A stretch of 36,301 bases of DNA from Bacteroidota bacterium. GTDB lineage: Bacteria > Bacteroidota > Bacteroidia > Chitinophagales > Chitinophagaceae. The stretch is taken from NCBI GenBank assembly GCA_018268135.1, contig JAFDXD010000115.1:1-36301 (forward strand), in the 5' to 3' direction. The notes under the pieces were generated by a model. It was not told the DNA's origin. It saw only the letters and a list, made by a program, of their open reading frames with translations, and searched no databases. A program made the position numbers and the translations under genes. Shown one piece after another: positions 7,363-12,811 of this stretch (positions are counted from its first letter, which is position 1; each line of letters begins with the position of its first letter).

Positions 7363-7773
7363 ATGATACAAAGAATACAATCTGTTTGGCTACTACTAAC
7401 TTCTGTCTGTGTTTTTGCCGGGCTTAAACTTCCTTTTTACAGCGGCACCAATAAAGAGGGGGTTCCTTCTTCATTATTAAATGGCATGTCGCCTATTTAT
7501 TTATTACTGCTAACAGTGGCTATAAGCGTAATTTCATTAGTAACTATTTTTCTTTATAAAAATAGAAATTTACAACTCAGGCTTTGCCTGATTACCATTT
7601 TATTGCAAGTAGGCCTTATATATTTATATTATCATCAATCTACTTTTTACACCGGAGGCACTTTTGCACTTACGGCCATACTGCAACCGGCTGCATTGCT
7701 ATTTTTATTTTTTGCAGTTACCGGTATTAGAAAAGATAATAAAATGGTGAAAGATAGCGACCGCCTTAGATAA
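7363..7773 (+). CDS. DUF4293 family membrane protein
   Basis: A 136-residue integral membrane protein with four predicted hydrophobic helices (about residues 5-25, 45-66, 71-90, 98-120) and a charged C-terminal tail (RKDNKMVKDSDRLR). The opening MIQRIQSVWLLL is characteristic of DUF4293, a small family largely restricted to Bacteroidota. The function is unknown and nothing in the sequence suggests a catalytic site. It precedes the thr operon by 281 bases and is probably transcribed separately from its own TAnnTTTG promoter. Confidence 0.8.
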   Translation: MIQRIQSVWLLLTSVCVFAGLKLPFYSGTNKEGVPSSLLNGMSPIYLLLLTVAISVISLVTIFLYKNRNLQLRLCLITILLQVGLIYLYYHQSTFYTGGTFALTAILQPAALLFLFFAVTGIRKDNKMVKDSDRLR

Positions 7774-7877
7774 ATGATTGATTAATATATTTGAATAAAT
7801 ATTTAGTTTTATTAGAAAATATCTAAAACTTTAAAATTTAGATGCATTTTAGGTTGTAATCCTGTACTTTCGTTAAA

Positions 7878-7961
7878 GTGTTCAAAACTACCAATCATAC
7901 AACTCCTTACGCTACTGTAGCTATTATATGCACTACAGCTACGATTATTACAACCCTTTAG
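7878..7961 (+). CDS. Candidate threonine-operon leader peptide (thrL-like)
   Basis: A 27-codon frame upstream of thrA, GTG start at 7878 and TAG at 7959-7961, encodes a peptide with 10 threonines and 4 isoleucines, ending CTTATIITTL. Thr comes in runs (TT, TT, T, TT, T, TT). This composition mirrors the E. coli thr leader, where ribosome stalling at Thr and Ile codons controls termination. No other frame in the intergenic region is so biased. The start is uncertain: the frame is open only from 7860, contains no ATG, and GTG 7878 is the only plausible initiator. A TACTTTCG box at 7865-7872 would put the transcription start almost on the GTG, implying a leaderless message, or the real promoter is further upstream. 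Confidence 0.6.
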   Translation: MFKTTNHTTPYATVAIICTTATIITTL

Positions 7962-7972
7962 GGGTTGCATAT
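7915..7972 (+). promoter_or_regulatory. Competing RNA pairings in the thr leader (putative attenuator)
   Basis: Within and just after the Thr-rich frame several stems can form. CTGTAG (7915-7920) pairs with CTACAG (7933-7938), or GTAGCT (7917-7922) with AGCTAC (7937-7942). ATATGCA (7926-7932) pairs with TGCATAT (7966-7972). CAACCC (7951-7956) pairs with GGGTTG (7962-7967) over a loop holding the leader stop codon. The first two exclude one another, and the last two overlap at 7966-7967, so a ribosome paused on Thr codons could switch between them. A weak stem ending at about 7999 followed by TTTTT (8001-8005) might be the terminator, but it is short. Pairings were read by eye; no folding energy was calculated. 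Confidence 0.45.
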
Positions 7973-8012
7973 TTACATATTACCAATTGGGCTTCGGCTA
8001 TTTTTAACACAG

Positions 8013-8036
8013 TTTTCATTTCAATTTTCATTTCAA
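8013..8036 (+). repeat. 12-base tandem duplication before thrA
   Basis: TTTTCATTTCAA occurs twice in perfect tandem (8013-8024 and 8025-8036), followed by a T-rich tract, ending 18 bases before the thrA ATG. It sits in the ribosome-approach region, so copy-number change could alter translation. Confidence 0.85.
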
Positions 8037-8054
8037 TTTTTTTAAGTAAACTAT

Positions 8055-10499
8055 ATGCAGGTATTAAAATTTGGGGGTAGTTCTGTAGCCAATGCAGAAA
8101 ATATAAAAAAAGTATTGGCAATCGTTAAGCAAAAAAATAAAAACGATCAATTATTTGTAATTGTATCGGCATTAGGAGGTGTAACAGATCTGTTATTAAA
8201 AAGCAGTTTGTTGGCAACCTCCGGCAATCTTGAGTATAAAGAAATTTTAAAAGAGGTAGAGCAACGTCATTTGCAGGCAGTAAAAGAGTTGATTCCTATT
8301 ACCATTCAAAGCAGTATTTTAAGTTTTGTAAAAACGCAGTGCAATGAGCTGGATGATATTTGCAAAGGTTTATTTGTTTTAAGAGATTTATCTCCTGCTA
8401 TAAAAGACCGCATCATGGGTTTTGGTGAATTATTGTCATCAAAAATTATAGCCGGTGCATTTGAAGCAGAAAATATAAATGTATGCTGGGCCGATTCAAG
8501 ATCACTCATTGTAACAGACGCTGCCTTTGGCCATGCCAATGTAAACTTTGCAGCTACAGATAATAATATCAACAAATTTATTGAAGACCATAAAGCAAAC
8601 TTATACCTTGCCCCAGGTTATATAGCAGCAAATGAAAAAGGCATACAAACCACTTTGGGCAGGGGAGGCTCTGATTATACAGCAGCTATTATTGCATCAG
8701 CTATTTCGGCATCAAGCCTCGAAATATGGACAGATGTATCCGGCATGATGACCGCCGACCCAAGGATTGTAGCCAATGCAAAAGTAATTTCTCAAATATC
8801 TTACCAGGAGGCAATGGAGCTTTCGCACTTTGGGGCAAAAGTAATTTTTCCACCCACCATACAGCCGGTGATGGGCAAGGCAATACCCGTATGGATTAAA
8901 AACACATTTACTCCGCAAGCAGAAGGTACTTTAATAAAAGCGCAAACAGCAAAAGATGTCAATACCATTACCGGTATTTCCAGCATTGGCAATATATCTT
9001 TGCTAAGCCTTGAAGGTAGCGGTATGATTGGTATTCCCGGATTTTCAAAAAGGCTATTTGAAGTATTGGCACAATTGCAGGTAAATGTAATTTTCATTAC
9101 TCAAAGCTCATCTGAGCACTCCATTTGTGTAGGCATAGATGAGGCCAGCGCTGCCTTAGCAAAAAATGCAGTAGATAAAGCATTTGCTATTGAAATAGCT
9201 CAGGAAAAAGTAGAGCCTGTTGTAATAGAAAATAATCTGTCCATCATTGCATTGGTAGGCGATAGAATGAAAAGGCATACCGGTGTTAGCGGAAAATTTT
9301 TTAGCACCCTTGGCAAAAGCGGCGTAAACATCAGGGCCATTTCTCAAGGCTCTTCCGAAAGAAATATATCGGCAGTAATTGCAAATGAAGATGTAAAAAA
9401 AGCGCTCAATGTAGTGCATGAATCTTTTTTTGAAACAGAAATTAAAGAACTCAATGTATTTATTGCAGGCGCCGGAAATGTAGGCTCCCGGCTACTTGCA
9501 CAATTGTACAAACAGCAGCAATACCTTCTCAAAAATCACAGGATAAAAATAAAAGTAGCCGGCCTTGCCAATAGCAGAACCATGTTGCTAAAAGAAGAAG
9601 GAGTAGATTTAAGTAACTGGCAGGAGGCATTGAAAGCAGGTACAAGTAGTAATATTGATGACTACATTCAAAAAATAATTACCAAAAATTTAAAGCATAC
9701 CATCTTTGTAGATGCTACGGCAAATGAACGTGTAGCCCATACTTACAGCGCTTTGTTACAAAAAAATATTGCAATAGTGGCTTGTAATAAAATAGCCTGC
9801 TCATCGCAATATGCTAATTATAAAAAATTAAAAGATTTAACTACAGAATACAATGCACAATTTTTATTTGAAACCAATGTTGGCGCCAGCCTGCCCATTA
9901 TTGGTACGCTAAATGATTTAATAAGCAGCGGCGATGCCGTGCATAAAATGCAGGCTGTGCTAAGCGGCACACTCAATTTTGTTTTCAATAATTATGATGG
10001 TACTAAAAGTTTTGCATCGGTAGTAAGGCAGGCGCAGGCAGAGGGCTACACTGAGCCCGACCCCCGGCTAGACCTTAGTGGTAAAGACGTAATGAGAAAA
10101 ATAATGATACTCATAAGAGAAGCCGGAAACACAATTGAAATGGATGAAATAGCCAACAATGTTTTTTTGCCGGAAGAGTGTATGCAGGGAAGTGTAGAAG
10201 ATTTTTATCAGTGCATGGAAAAGCATGAGCCTCATTTTAAAAAACTATATGAAGAGGCGGCAGCAAAAAATTGCAAATTAAAATTTGTAGCCTCTTACGA
10301 AAATGGAAAAGCAGTTACAGGGCTTCAGCATATTGATCCTAAGCATGATTTTTATCACTTGTATGGAAAAGATAATATAGTATTGTTTTATACAGACAGG
10401 TATGTGGACCAGCCATTGGTAATAAAAGGAGCCGGCGCAGGTGCCGATCTTACAGCATCCGGAGTATTTGGAGACATCATCAGAGCATCTAAAGCATAA
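8055..10499 (+). CDS. thrA: Bifunctional aspartate kinase / homoserine dehydrogenase
   Basis: An 814-residue fusion carrying out two steps of the aspartate pathway: phosphorylation of aspartate and NAD(P)H-dependent reduction of aspartate semialdehyde to homoserine. The kinase opens with KFGGSS (residues 5-10), with TLGRGGSDYTAA near 200-212. Two ACT regulatory domains occupy about 310-455 (LEGSGMIGIPGFSKRLFEVL, then VGDRMKRHTGVSGKFFSTLG), the usual site of threonine inhibition. The dehydrogenase begins near 465 with IAGAGNVGSRLL and includes SGTLNFVFN and the catalytic LDLSGKDVMRK. The length equals that of E. coli ThrA. It is the first gene of thrABC; thrB starts 6 bases downstream. Regulation is probably by the Thr/Ile leader upstream. 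Confidence 0.97.
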   Translation: MQVLKFGGSSVANAENIKKVLAIVKQKNKNDQLFVIVSALGGVTDLLLKSSLLATSGNLEYKEILKEVEQRHLQAVKELIPITIQSSILSFVKTQCNELDDICKGLFVLRDLSPAIKDRIMGFGELLSSKIIAGAFEAENINVCWADSRSLIVTDAAFGHANVNFAATDNNINKFIEDHKANLYLAPGYIAANEKGIQTTLGRGGSDYTAAIIASAISASSLEIWTDVSGMMTADPRIVANAKVISQISYQEAMELSHFGAKVIFPPTIQPVMGKAIPVWIKNTFTPQAEGTLIKAQTAKDVNTITGISSIGNISLLSLEGSGMIGIPGFSKRLFEVLAQLQVNVIFITQSSSEHSICVGIDEASAALAKNAVDKAFAIEIAQEKVEPVVIENNLSIIALVGDRMKRHTGVSGKFFSTLGKSGVNIRAISQGSSERNISAVIANEDVKKALNVVHESFFETEIKELNVFIAGAGNVGSRLLAQLYKQQQYLLKNHRIKIKVAGLANSRTMLLKEEGVDLSNWQEALKAGTSSNIDDYIQKIITKNLKHTIFVDATANERVAHTYSALLQKNIAIVACNKIACSSQYANYKKLKDLTTEYNAQFLFETNVGASLPIIGTLNDLISSGDAVHKMQAVLSGTLNFVFNNYDGTKSFASVVRQAQAEGYTEPDPRLDLSGKDVMRKIMILIREAGNTIEMDEIANNVFLPEECMQGSVEDFYQCMEKHEPHFKKLYEEAAAKNCKLKFVASYENGKAVTGLQHIDPKHDFYHLYGKDNIVLFYTDRYVDQPLVIKGAGAGADLTASGVFGDIIRASKA

Positions 10500-10505
10500 A
10501 TAAAA

Positions 10506-11447
10506 ATGAAGTTTGAAGCAGAAAAAAAAGTAGTTGTAGAGGCGCCGGGCACTATCGCCAACCTGGTATGCGGCTTTGATGTATTGGGGCTTTGTTTGCA
10601 TACGCCCCACGATACTATGGAACTGAAATTAATTGAGGAAAAAAAAGTAATCATCCGCTCATCTGATAAATATTCATTACCCACTGAGCCATCGCAAAAT
10701 ACTGCCGGGGCGCCCCTGCTCGAAATATTGCAGGAAGTAGATGCAGCATTTGGATTTGAACTATTGATACATAAAAATATAATGCCCGGCAGTGGCCTGG
10801 GCTCTAGCGCTGCAAGTGCCGCCGGGGCTGTAGTGGCAGCAAATCATTTACTTGGCAATATATTTAATAAAAATGACCAGGTGCGCTTTGCCATGAGCGG
10901 AGAAAAAGTAGCCACAGGTGTAAAACATGCAGATAATGTAGCTCCTTGTATTTTCGGAGGCATTACGCTGATAAGAAGTATTTTTCCTTTAGATATTATT
11001 AGCATTCCGGCTCCGCAGCTATACGTTACCGTTATACATCCTCAAATAGAAGTAAAAACCTCTGATGCCAGACAAATACTACGCAAAGAAGTATTGCTTA
11101 AAGACGCTATCAGGCAATGGGGCAATATTGCAGGGCTTGTAGCCGGGCTGATGAAAAATGATTATGAGCTTATAGGCCGTAGCCTGGAAGATGTAATTAT
11201 TGAACCCATAAGAAGTATTTTAATTCCCGGGTTTGATGAAGTAAAGAAAAATTGTAAAAATGCCGGAGCACTGGGAGGTGGTATTTCAGGCTCGGGCCCT
11301 TCTATATTTATGCTCAGCAAAAGCCGTGAAACAGCCGAAGCTATTGAAAAAGAAATGCAAATGATTTACCAGCGCATTGGGTTAGCCCATTATACTTATG
11401 TAACAACTTTAAATATGGATGGAGTAAAAATTTTGAACCAGGCATAA
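10506..11447 (+). CDS. thrB: Homoserine kinase
   Basis: A 313-residue GHMP-family kinase that phosphorylates homoserine with ATP to O-phosphohomoserine. The family's ATP-binding glycine/serine loop PGSGLGSSAASA lies near residues 94-105, the N-terminal motif APGTIANLVCGFD near 15-27, and the third GHMP motif GGGISGSGPSIFML near 258-271. Length is normal for ThrB. The gene follows thrA by 6 bases and precedes thrC by 65, consistent with one transcript and translational coupling to thrA. Confidence 0.96.
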   Translation: MKFEAEKKVVVEAPGTIANLVCGFDVLGLCLHTPHDTMELKLIEEKKVIIRSSDKYSLPTEPSQNTAGAPLLEILQEVDAAFGFELLIHKNIMPGSGLGSSAASAAGAVVAANHLLGNIFNKNDQVRFAMSGEKVATGVKHADNVAPCIFGGITLIRSIFPLDIISIPAPQLYVTVIHPQIEVKTSDARQILRKEVLLKDAIRQWGNIAGLVAGLMKNDYELIGRSLEDVIIEPIRSILIPGFDEVKKNCKNAGALGGGISGSGPSIFMLSKSRETAEAIEKEMQMIYQRIGLAHYTYVTTLNMDGVKILNQA

Positions 11448-11512: not shown

Positions 11513-12811
11513 ATGAAATTTTTCAGCACAAATAAAAAATCTTCTCCTGTAAATTTTAAAGAAGCCTGTATTAATGGCCAGGCGCCGGATAAAGGGCTAT
11601 ACTTTCCGGAGTACATCCCACAATTGCCCGCTTCTTTTTTTGAGGCTATTGAAAGTATGAGCAATGAAGATATTGCCTTTGAAGCCATAAAAAATTATAT
11701 AGGCGATTGCATACCGGCTCCAATATTAAAAAATATTGTAGAAGAAACTATCAACTTCAGCATACCATTAATACCCATTACCGATTCTGTATTTTCATTA
11801 GAATTATTTCATGGCCCCACCCTTGCTTTTAAAGATGTAGGCGCCAGGTTTATGAGCCGCTGCCTGGGTTATTTTGTAAAAGATTTTTCAAAAAAAGTAA
11901 CCGTATTGGTGGCTACCTCCGGCGACACCGGCGGCGCTGTAGCACATGGTTTTTATGACGTACCCAATGTAGAAGTGGTAATACTTTATCCCTCCGGCAA
12001 AGTAAGTACCGTACAGGAAAAACAATTAACCACACTCGGGAAAAATATTCATGCAATAGAAGTACAAGGCAATTTTGACGACTGCCAGCAGATGGTGAAA
12101 GAAATATTTTTATCTGCCTCCGAATTTGAAAACCTGTTTTTAACTTCTGCTAATTCAATCAATGTAGCCCGCTGGCTTCCCCAGCAGTTTTATTATTTTT
12201 TGGCTTATAAGCAATGGAAAGATAAAGATACAGCTCCTGTAATAGCAGTGCCCAGTGGCAATTTCGGAAACATTTGTGCAGGCTTGTTAGCAAAGGCTTC
12301 CGGCCTGCCTGTACAATACTTTATTGCAGCCTGCAATGCAAATGATGTAGTGCCACAGTTTTTGCAAACGGGCAATTATTTGCCAAAGCCTGCCGTAGCT
12401 ACTATTTCTAATGCAATGGATGTAGGCAACCCAAGTAATTTTGTACGCATCATGGAAATTTTTCATCATCAAATTCCTGATTTACAACAAGTGTTTTCAG
12501 CAGTATCTGTTAGCGATGCACGGACTAAGGAAACAATTAAAAATGTATATCAGCATCACCAATATCTTTTAGACCCACATGGTGCTGTTGGTTTTACTGC
12601 TTTATCCGATTATTTAAATATGCATCCTGACAGTAAAGGTATTGTAGTAGAAACAGCACACCCGGTTAAGTTTTTTGATGTAGTGGAGCCTGTTATTGGT
12701 GAAGCAATCAAAATACCTGAAACCATTCAATCACAATTGGGGCAGCAGAAAAATGCTACACTTATGAATGCTTATGTAAATGCTTTAAAGAATTTTTTAC
12801 ATCAGCTTTAA
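11513..12811 (+). CDS. thrC: Threonine synthase
   Basis: A 432-residue PLP enzyme turning O-phosphohomoserine into threonine, the last step of the pathway. The PLP lysine is in HGPTLAFKDVGARF (about residues 100-113, Lys about 107), and the phosphate-binding loop is ATSGDTGGAVAHGF (about 133-146). SANSINVARWLPQQFYY and AVPSGNFGNICAG are further family signatures. This is the short bacterial ThrC type typical of gamma-proteobacteria and Bacteroidota. It ends 6 bases from the uvrA stop on the other strand, so there is no room for a private terminator. Confidence 0.96.
   Translation: MKFFSTNKKSSPVNFKEACINGQAPDKGLYFPEYIPQLPASFFEAIESMSNEDIAFEAIKNYIGDCIPAPILKNIVEETINFSIPLIPITDSVFSLELFHGPTLAFKDVGARFMSRCLGYFVKDFSKKVTVLVATSGDTGGAVAHGFYDVPNVEVVILYPSGKVSTVQEKQLTTLGKNIHAIEVQGNFDDCQQMVKEIFLSASEFENLFLTSANSINVARWLPQQFYYFLAYKQWKDKDTAPVIAVPSGNFGNICAGLLAKASGLPVQYFIAACNANDVVPQFLQTGNYLPKPAVATISNAMDVGNPSNFVRIMEIFHHQIPDLQQVFSAVSVSDARTKETIKNVYQHHQYLLDPHGAVGFTALSDYLNMHPDSKGIVVETAHPVKFFDVVEPVIGEAIKIPETIQSQLGQQKNATLMNAYVNALKNFLHQL

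Follow-up and report, generated by a model that had tools for sequence, protein, structure and literature searches.

Is the short, threonine-rich frame that lies in front of thrABC in a 36,301-nucleotide stretch of DNA from a Bacteroidota bacterium of the Chitinophagaceae (assembly GCA_018268135.1, contig JAFDXD010000115.1; hereafter the window) a leader peptide that controls this operon, and by which route could it act? A sequence-only reading of the window had placed a frame of 27 codons with 10 Thr and 4 Ile codons (GTG 7878 to TAG 7961) about 95 bases before thrA. Its coordinates and counts are confirmed, with a gap of 93 nt to thrA at 8055. The frame (7878..7961; this and all features below are on the forward strand) translates as VFKTTNHTTPYATVAIICTTATIITTL, followed by the stop. 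The window has 502 frames of 15-45 codons, none of the others reaches 30% Thr, and dinucleotide shuffles of 7878-7958 contain 3.7 Thr codons on average, with one in 5000 remaining open and holding at least 10. Judged from comparative sequence analysis, we take the thr leader to be a real, conserved leader-peptide attenuator of non-classical design, and we regard the chances as evenly balanced that it works through a stalled ribosome that itself occludes a hairpin at the end of the leader. Within this proposal, the sensing of threonine by ribosome stalling on the leader is very probably correct and well supported, and the step that switches the operon off is one that we infer.

The sequence-only reading had suggested a comparison of thrA upstream regions from related Chitinophagaceae, and this comparison recovered both the Thr/Ile codons and a covarying hairpin, here called P1. 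In 157 of 170 distinct family regions a Thr-rich frame ends in P1 or at most 4 nt from it. An automatic criterion, a Thr-rich frame whose stop sits at a hairpin, found 154 of these regions, and three with too little Thr to pass were included manually (L026, L105 and L274, the last probably anchored at the wrong place). The material comprised 80 named loci and thrA sites located in 191 of the family's 195 genomes, of which the best 30 were taken as loci and 80 more as stretches. In the first set, 85 of 98 distinct upstream regions pass the criterion, the stretches bringing the distinct regions to 170, and a close variant is passed by 83 of the 98 in real sequence versus 0-2 after shuffling. The 13 misses comprise six that hold the element by eye, two that are cut by contig ends (L021, L076) and five that show none (L055, L057, L064, L072, L073). 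Named holders of the leader include Niastella (L015), Terrimonas (L016), Ferruginibacter (L041) and Pinibacter (L079).

Family leaders are mostly 26-33 codons long, and their residues are 26% Thr and 15% Ile. The starts assigned in the 157 regions are ATG (72), GTG (65) and TTG (10), with none assigned in 10. The last nine codons before the stop form the control zone, which in the window (7932..7958) reads ACT ACA GCT ACG ATT ATT ACA ACC CTT; codons -2 to -9 of 145 relatives specify Thr in 54-90% of cases and Ile in 3-41%. In all, 37 close pairs show 95, 83 and 192 substitutions at the first, second and third codon positions, and 15 disjoint pairs show 34, 29 and 58, a third-position bias that is the pattern of a translated frame. 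The match of a Thr/Ile peptide to thrABC, on which the sequence-only reading was built, is thus borne out by a frame with the pattern of translation that is conserved in the family and beyond.

P1 of the window (7951..7967) pairs CAACCC at 7951-7956 with GGGTTG at 7962-7967, and its loop at 7957-7961 holds the stop TAG (7959-7961), just as the sequence-only reading had described; the fold additionally pairs U7957 with G7961. Of the 157 leader stops, 145 overlap the loop, four fall within the 3' arm and eight come 0-4 nt after P1. P1 stems are exchanged wholesale and stay paired: CAACCC/GGGTTG occurs 68 times, ATCCGC/GCGGAT 25 times and TACCCT/AGGGTA seven times. Pairs 1-4 are paired by construction, as a four-pair stem was required, and the evidence therefore lies in their change of type and in pairs 5 and 6, neither of which was required by selection and which are standard in 156 and 148 of the 157 regions, respectively. 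When the arms were permuted among family sequences, covariation reached z 29. Over the whole interval 7878-8070 of the window, the fold is not better than that of shuffles (z 0.35). In six regions (L027, L049, L058, L059, L066, L091) P1 is retained and the stop codon has moved from the loop to just past the stem, which suggests that P1, and not a stop in its loop, is constrained.

P1 is the first part of a conserved module in which it is followed after about 7-8 nt by the box CATATYAY (box B), after a further 4-5 nt by a second hairpin (P2) and, on average, by a third hairpin. In the window, an A/T-rich spacer of 8 nt (CATATTTA, 7968..7975; mostly 6-10 nt in relatives) leads to box B (CATATTAC, 7976..7983) and to P2 (GGC-TTCG-GCT, 7990..7999); no third hairpin can be made out in the window sequence itself. 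Box B is nearly invariant and lies in unpaired sequence, and the stretch from P1 through box B is poor in G (2.5%). Across four stem classes, box B lies on average 7.2-7.9 nt past the end of the P1 stem, and its distance from the stop differs between the classes; the spacing is therefore set from the hairpin and not from the stop. As the initial anchoring favoured one distance between P1 and the box, the spacing was remeasured with P1 chosen without reference to the box: ATATYA then lies no further than 60 nt past P1 in 79 of 85 regions versus 8.9 in shuffles. In 71 of the 85 the first match is 6-10 nt past the stem, and in the other eight of the 79 an earlier match overlaps it at the end of the stem.

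Downstream of box B, a GGC follows at 12-13 nt in 134 of the 157 regions. The arms of P2 covary by permutation (z 7.1; 6.6 after dereplication), as do those of the third hairpin (z 9.4; 8.5 after dereplication), and a negative-control pair of segments showed no significant covariation in the same test. An earlier value of z 37 for P2 was set aside as circular, since the hairpin had been chosen before testing; the fair value is 7.1. In some relatives the P2 arms are replaced wholesale, by ACCAC/GTGGT in L333 and by TAGGA/TTCCTA in L221. Close to the start of the leader, 81 of 147 relatives repeat the box (box A), versus 2 of 84 control windows, all of which were taken further upstream. It sits 65-104 nt before box B (mode 83), lies outside a His-Ile-Ile frame in 13 of the 81 and is found in 0 of 18 his leaders. 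The window holds a degenerate copy (CATACAAC, 7896..7903) that departs at two positions from the CATATYAY of relatives. Box B, P2, the third hairpin in relatives, the spacing and the upstream box copy had all been missed when the window was read as a single sequence.

A classical terminator is missing from this arrangement. None was found in a scan of the window, as the sequence-only reading had also noted, and U-tract terminators were found in only 6 of 157 thr leaders of the family (1-3 in shuffles); five of these six sites consist of P1 followed by a T-rich tail. The same scan found a U-tract terminator in 26 of 26 his leaders of the family that carry a codon run (26 of 30 loci had one) and in 5 of 5 such ilv leaders (5 of 30 loci). 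In the source genome, a His-run leader peptide followed by a U-tract hairpin lies upstream of hisG (L188, contig C8) and an Ile/Val-run leader peptide followed by a U-tract hairpin upstream of ilvD (L161, contig C39), both attenuators of the classical type. Within a single family, his and ilv thus have leaders of the classical form, and thr has a different one, itself conserved. The competing pairings that the sequence-only reading had offered as the switch are not conserved. Permutation of arms among sequences is blind when the arms are conserved (his control z 1.7), and the test was hence repeated with shuffled leaders: pairing between the thr leader and P1 showed no excess (z -1.6 and 1.2), and pairing with P2 showed a small excess for the 3' side (z 3.3) and a deficit for the 5' side (z -3.4). 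In contrast, his leaders, in rows selected through a pattern of which the terminator is a part, pair strongly with the 5' arm of the terminator (z 23).

Two further identities of the element were considered and rejected. A known RNA family is rejected because Rfam 15 gave no match at or above gathering score in the window; the region 7780-8100 gave two chance hits with E values of 1.3 and 5.3. A general amino-acid leader signal is likewise rejected, as model R1, which holds three base pairs only (P1 stems of unequal length were split in the alignment), is strong in the source genome only at the thrA site (E 9e-14, next 0.9). Of the weaker R1 matches, 20 stretches were taken and 19 inspected; two of them, upstream of thrA (L354, L355), look real, and the other 17 are without a leader and look like chance or coding matches.

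Outside the Chitinophagaceae, the leader was found in two further families. In a second family of the same class (f25), 22 of 37 tested rows were positive (36 from f25 itself and one, L214, from f24), and in a family outside the class (f41) the frame-plus-hairpin criterion was positive in 12 of 25; shuffles gave 0-1 positives in each set. The sample was in part hand-picked (12 rows), and rows in which no leader was seen had been set aside by eye (L218 and L219 in f25; L224, L226-L229 and L239 in f41); when these are counted, the fractions become 21/38 for f25 and 12/31 for f41. A further 18 and 7 matches without a locus are outside these counts. All 12 f41 positives carry box B as CATATC, and their P2 arms pair (z 2.9). 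By eye, three thrA leaders of another family of the same class (f23; L232, L234, L240) have a Thr/Ile peptide that ends near a Gly-rich tail and is followed by a U-tract hairpin; with such classical-type thr leaders beside those of the P1-box-P2 type, the phylum has both designs. Three thrA leaders of family f28 (L230, L233, L236) show, also by eye, a different hairpin of the type ACGGGG-TAA/TGA-CCCGT with the leader stop in the loop and no clear box B, which is perhaps a third design.

The surroundings of the leader are those of a threonine operon. Downstream lie thrA (8055..10499), encoding a fused aspartate kinase-homoserine dehydrogenase, thrB (10506..11447), encoding a GHMP kinase that is a homoserine kinase by position, and thrC (11513..12811), encoding threonine synthase. 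Upstream, a gene of the DUF4293 membrane-protein family (7363-7773) lies on the same strand and ends 104 nt before the leader frame. The -7 element of Bacteroidota promoters has the consensus TAnnTTTG. A -7-like box, TACTTTCG (7865..7872), predicts a transcript start at or near the GTG, and the leader may therefore be nearly leaderless, this box at 7865-7872 being the one basis for the suggestion. In relatives, such boxes precede the leader in 101 of 154 regions versus 68-74 in shuffles, a modest excess over a weak control, and one lies 5-20 nt from an in-frame leader start in 69 of 98 regions, the box itself again being modestly above shuffles.

With the terminator missing, the thr switch must work by another route. 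The attenuation by the ribosome that the sequence-only reading had proposed survives in part: the peptide and the stop in a hairpin loop make control by the ribosome the natural reading, and the competing stems do not hold. Because the stop and the last Thr codons are themselves part of P1, a ribosome on the Thr/Ile codons would decide whether P1 forms. When charged tRNA-Thr is ample, the ribosome would finish the leader and depart, and P1 would fold while RNA polymerase stands at box B, which we presume, from the geometry of pause hairpins and terminators, to lie at the active centre of the polymerase. P1, the A/U-rich spacer and box B might together form a hairpin-dependent pause signal or a signal for factor-assisted termination. 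When Thr (or Ile) is short, the ribosome would stall in the last codons and cover the 5' arm of P1, and the polymerase could proceed. Potentially, the stalled ribosome thus replaces the antiterminator RNA by occluding P1 itself. It is tempting to speculate that box A provides an early pause during which a ribosome is loaded onto the near-leaderless transcript.

Several points weigh against this model. By an estimate of the ribosome footprint, stalling at codons -9 and -8 would leave P1 free, and the response to strong starvation is therefore not simply explained. P1 is without a proper U-tract, P2 and the third hairpin are without a clear role when it is P1 that is occluded, and the sequence beyond box B does not exceed shuffles in stability (mean z -0.12). 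In f25, moreover, the box is looser, P2 is not significant and several rows are mis-anchored at box B. A wider proposal, a Bacteroidota-wide class of attenuators without terminator or antiterminator, in which the leader ribosome acts as the antiterminator at P1, polymerase is held at CATATYAY about 7-8 nt further on and the same signal is reused near the 5' end for loading the ribosome, is tentative and rather improbable as a whole.

Among the alternatives, attenuation by Rho survives best, although we think it unlikely. A C-rich and G-poor leader would load Rho, a ribosome stalled on the Thr codons would shield the polymerase, and P1, box B and P2 would be elements of pausing or stability. 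The thr leaders, in which no intrinsic terminator was found, would suit such a mechanism, as would a composition of 26% C and 11% G in the 75 nt of the leader; however, this bias is imposed by Thr and Ile codons. The source genome holds a full Rho gene, but Rho is near-universal and its presence uninformative. Rho has also been proposed for terminator-less actinobacterial cys leaders (PMC1262725). A box at a fixed distance from a hairpin is, however, nothing that Rho requires.

A less probable route is translational, with the leader ribosome governing thrA translation either through reinitiation or through release of the thrA start, in the manner of leaderless attenuators with a codon run. Control codons beside the stop and a possibly leaderless frame do resemble mycobacterial polycysteine leaders (PMC13236596). 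Hiding of the thrA start by conserved structures is nevertheless rejected: in 90 loci shuffling of the upstream sequence leaves the openness of the start region much the same (0.563 real versus 0.538 shuffled), and this region pairs little with P1 (0.005) or P2-P3 (0.071). The leader stop, moreover, lies 66-210 nt from thrA in the rows measured, which is far for reinitiation.

Somewhat less probable still is recognition of box A or box B between the hairpins by a protein or nuclease, be it an RNA-binding regulator, an endonuclease with its site there or a factor at a DNA operator, with the peptide as a second input. The near-invariance of box B in unpaired sequence would agree with this, as would the upstream copies, including those out of the His-Ile-Ile frame, and their lack in his leaders; no such factor is known, however, and the close linkage of the stop codon with P1 and the box speaks for ribosome and polymerase instead. 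A classical attenuator with an intrinsic terminator set against an antiterminator is largely refuted and very improbable, and was rejected on the scarcity of terminators, the lack of a conserved alternative pairing and the positive his controls, even though the leader peptide matches the operon and P2 of the window is followed by ATTTTT.

Occlusion of P1 by a stalled ribosome, the reading we prefer, can be set beside known leaders. In E. coli, thrL encodes a short Thr/Ile leader peptide before thrABC and is followed by a GC-rich U-tract terminator with an alternative fold. The thr leader of the Chitinophagaceae shares with it the Thr/Ile peptide and the ribosome as sensor; neither terminator nor alternative fold was found, and Rfam, which holds known leaders, gave no match. 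Actinobacterial cys leaders have a run of control codons near the stop and no terminator hairpin, and Rho was proposed to act on them (PMC1262725). The thr leader shares the codon run and the lack of a terminator, and differs by its conserved P1, box B and P2, by the amino acid and by the phylum. Leaderless short polycysteine frames of mycobacteria (Canestrari 2020) are cited as a case of translation attenuation in a 2026 paper (PMC13236596); with them the thr leader shares a codon run by which the amino acid would be sensed and, possibly, a leaderless start, whereas the thrA start is not hidden by conserved structures here. In the same phylum, the transcriptome of Flavobacterium psychrophilum gave clues of leader-peptide attenuation before amino-acid operons; its section on them names elements of pheA and hisG and not thr, and neither 'thrA' nor 'threonine' occurs in the main text (PMC9723704). 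Among the matches listed in the open-licence literature, there was no account of a P1-box B-P2 module before thr or of any Bacteroidota thr leader. Leader-peptide attenuation is therefore already known as a kind, and the P1-box B-P2 module before thr is the part that seems new. If a hairpin that is occluded by the ribosome and followed by a box were confirmed, it would offer a simpler way to sense an amino acid, a signal at which the Bacteroidota RNA polymerase may pause or stop and an RNA family absent from Rfam 15. A further comparison is found within the family itself: its his and ilv leaders have a leader peptide and control codons like the thr leader, but carry U-tract terminators. As textbook leader-peptide control needs both terminator and antiterminator, the Chitinophagaceae permit the two forms to be compared in one cell.
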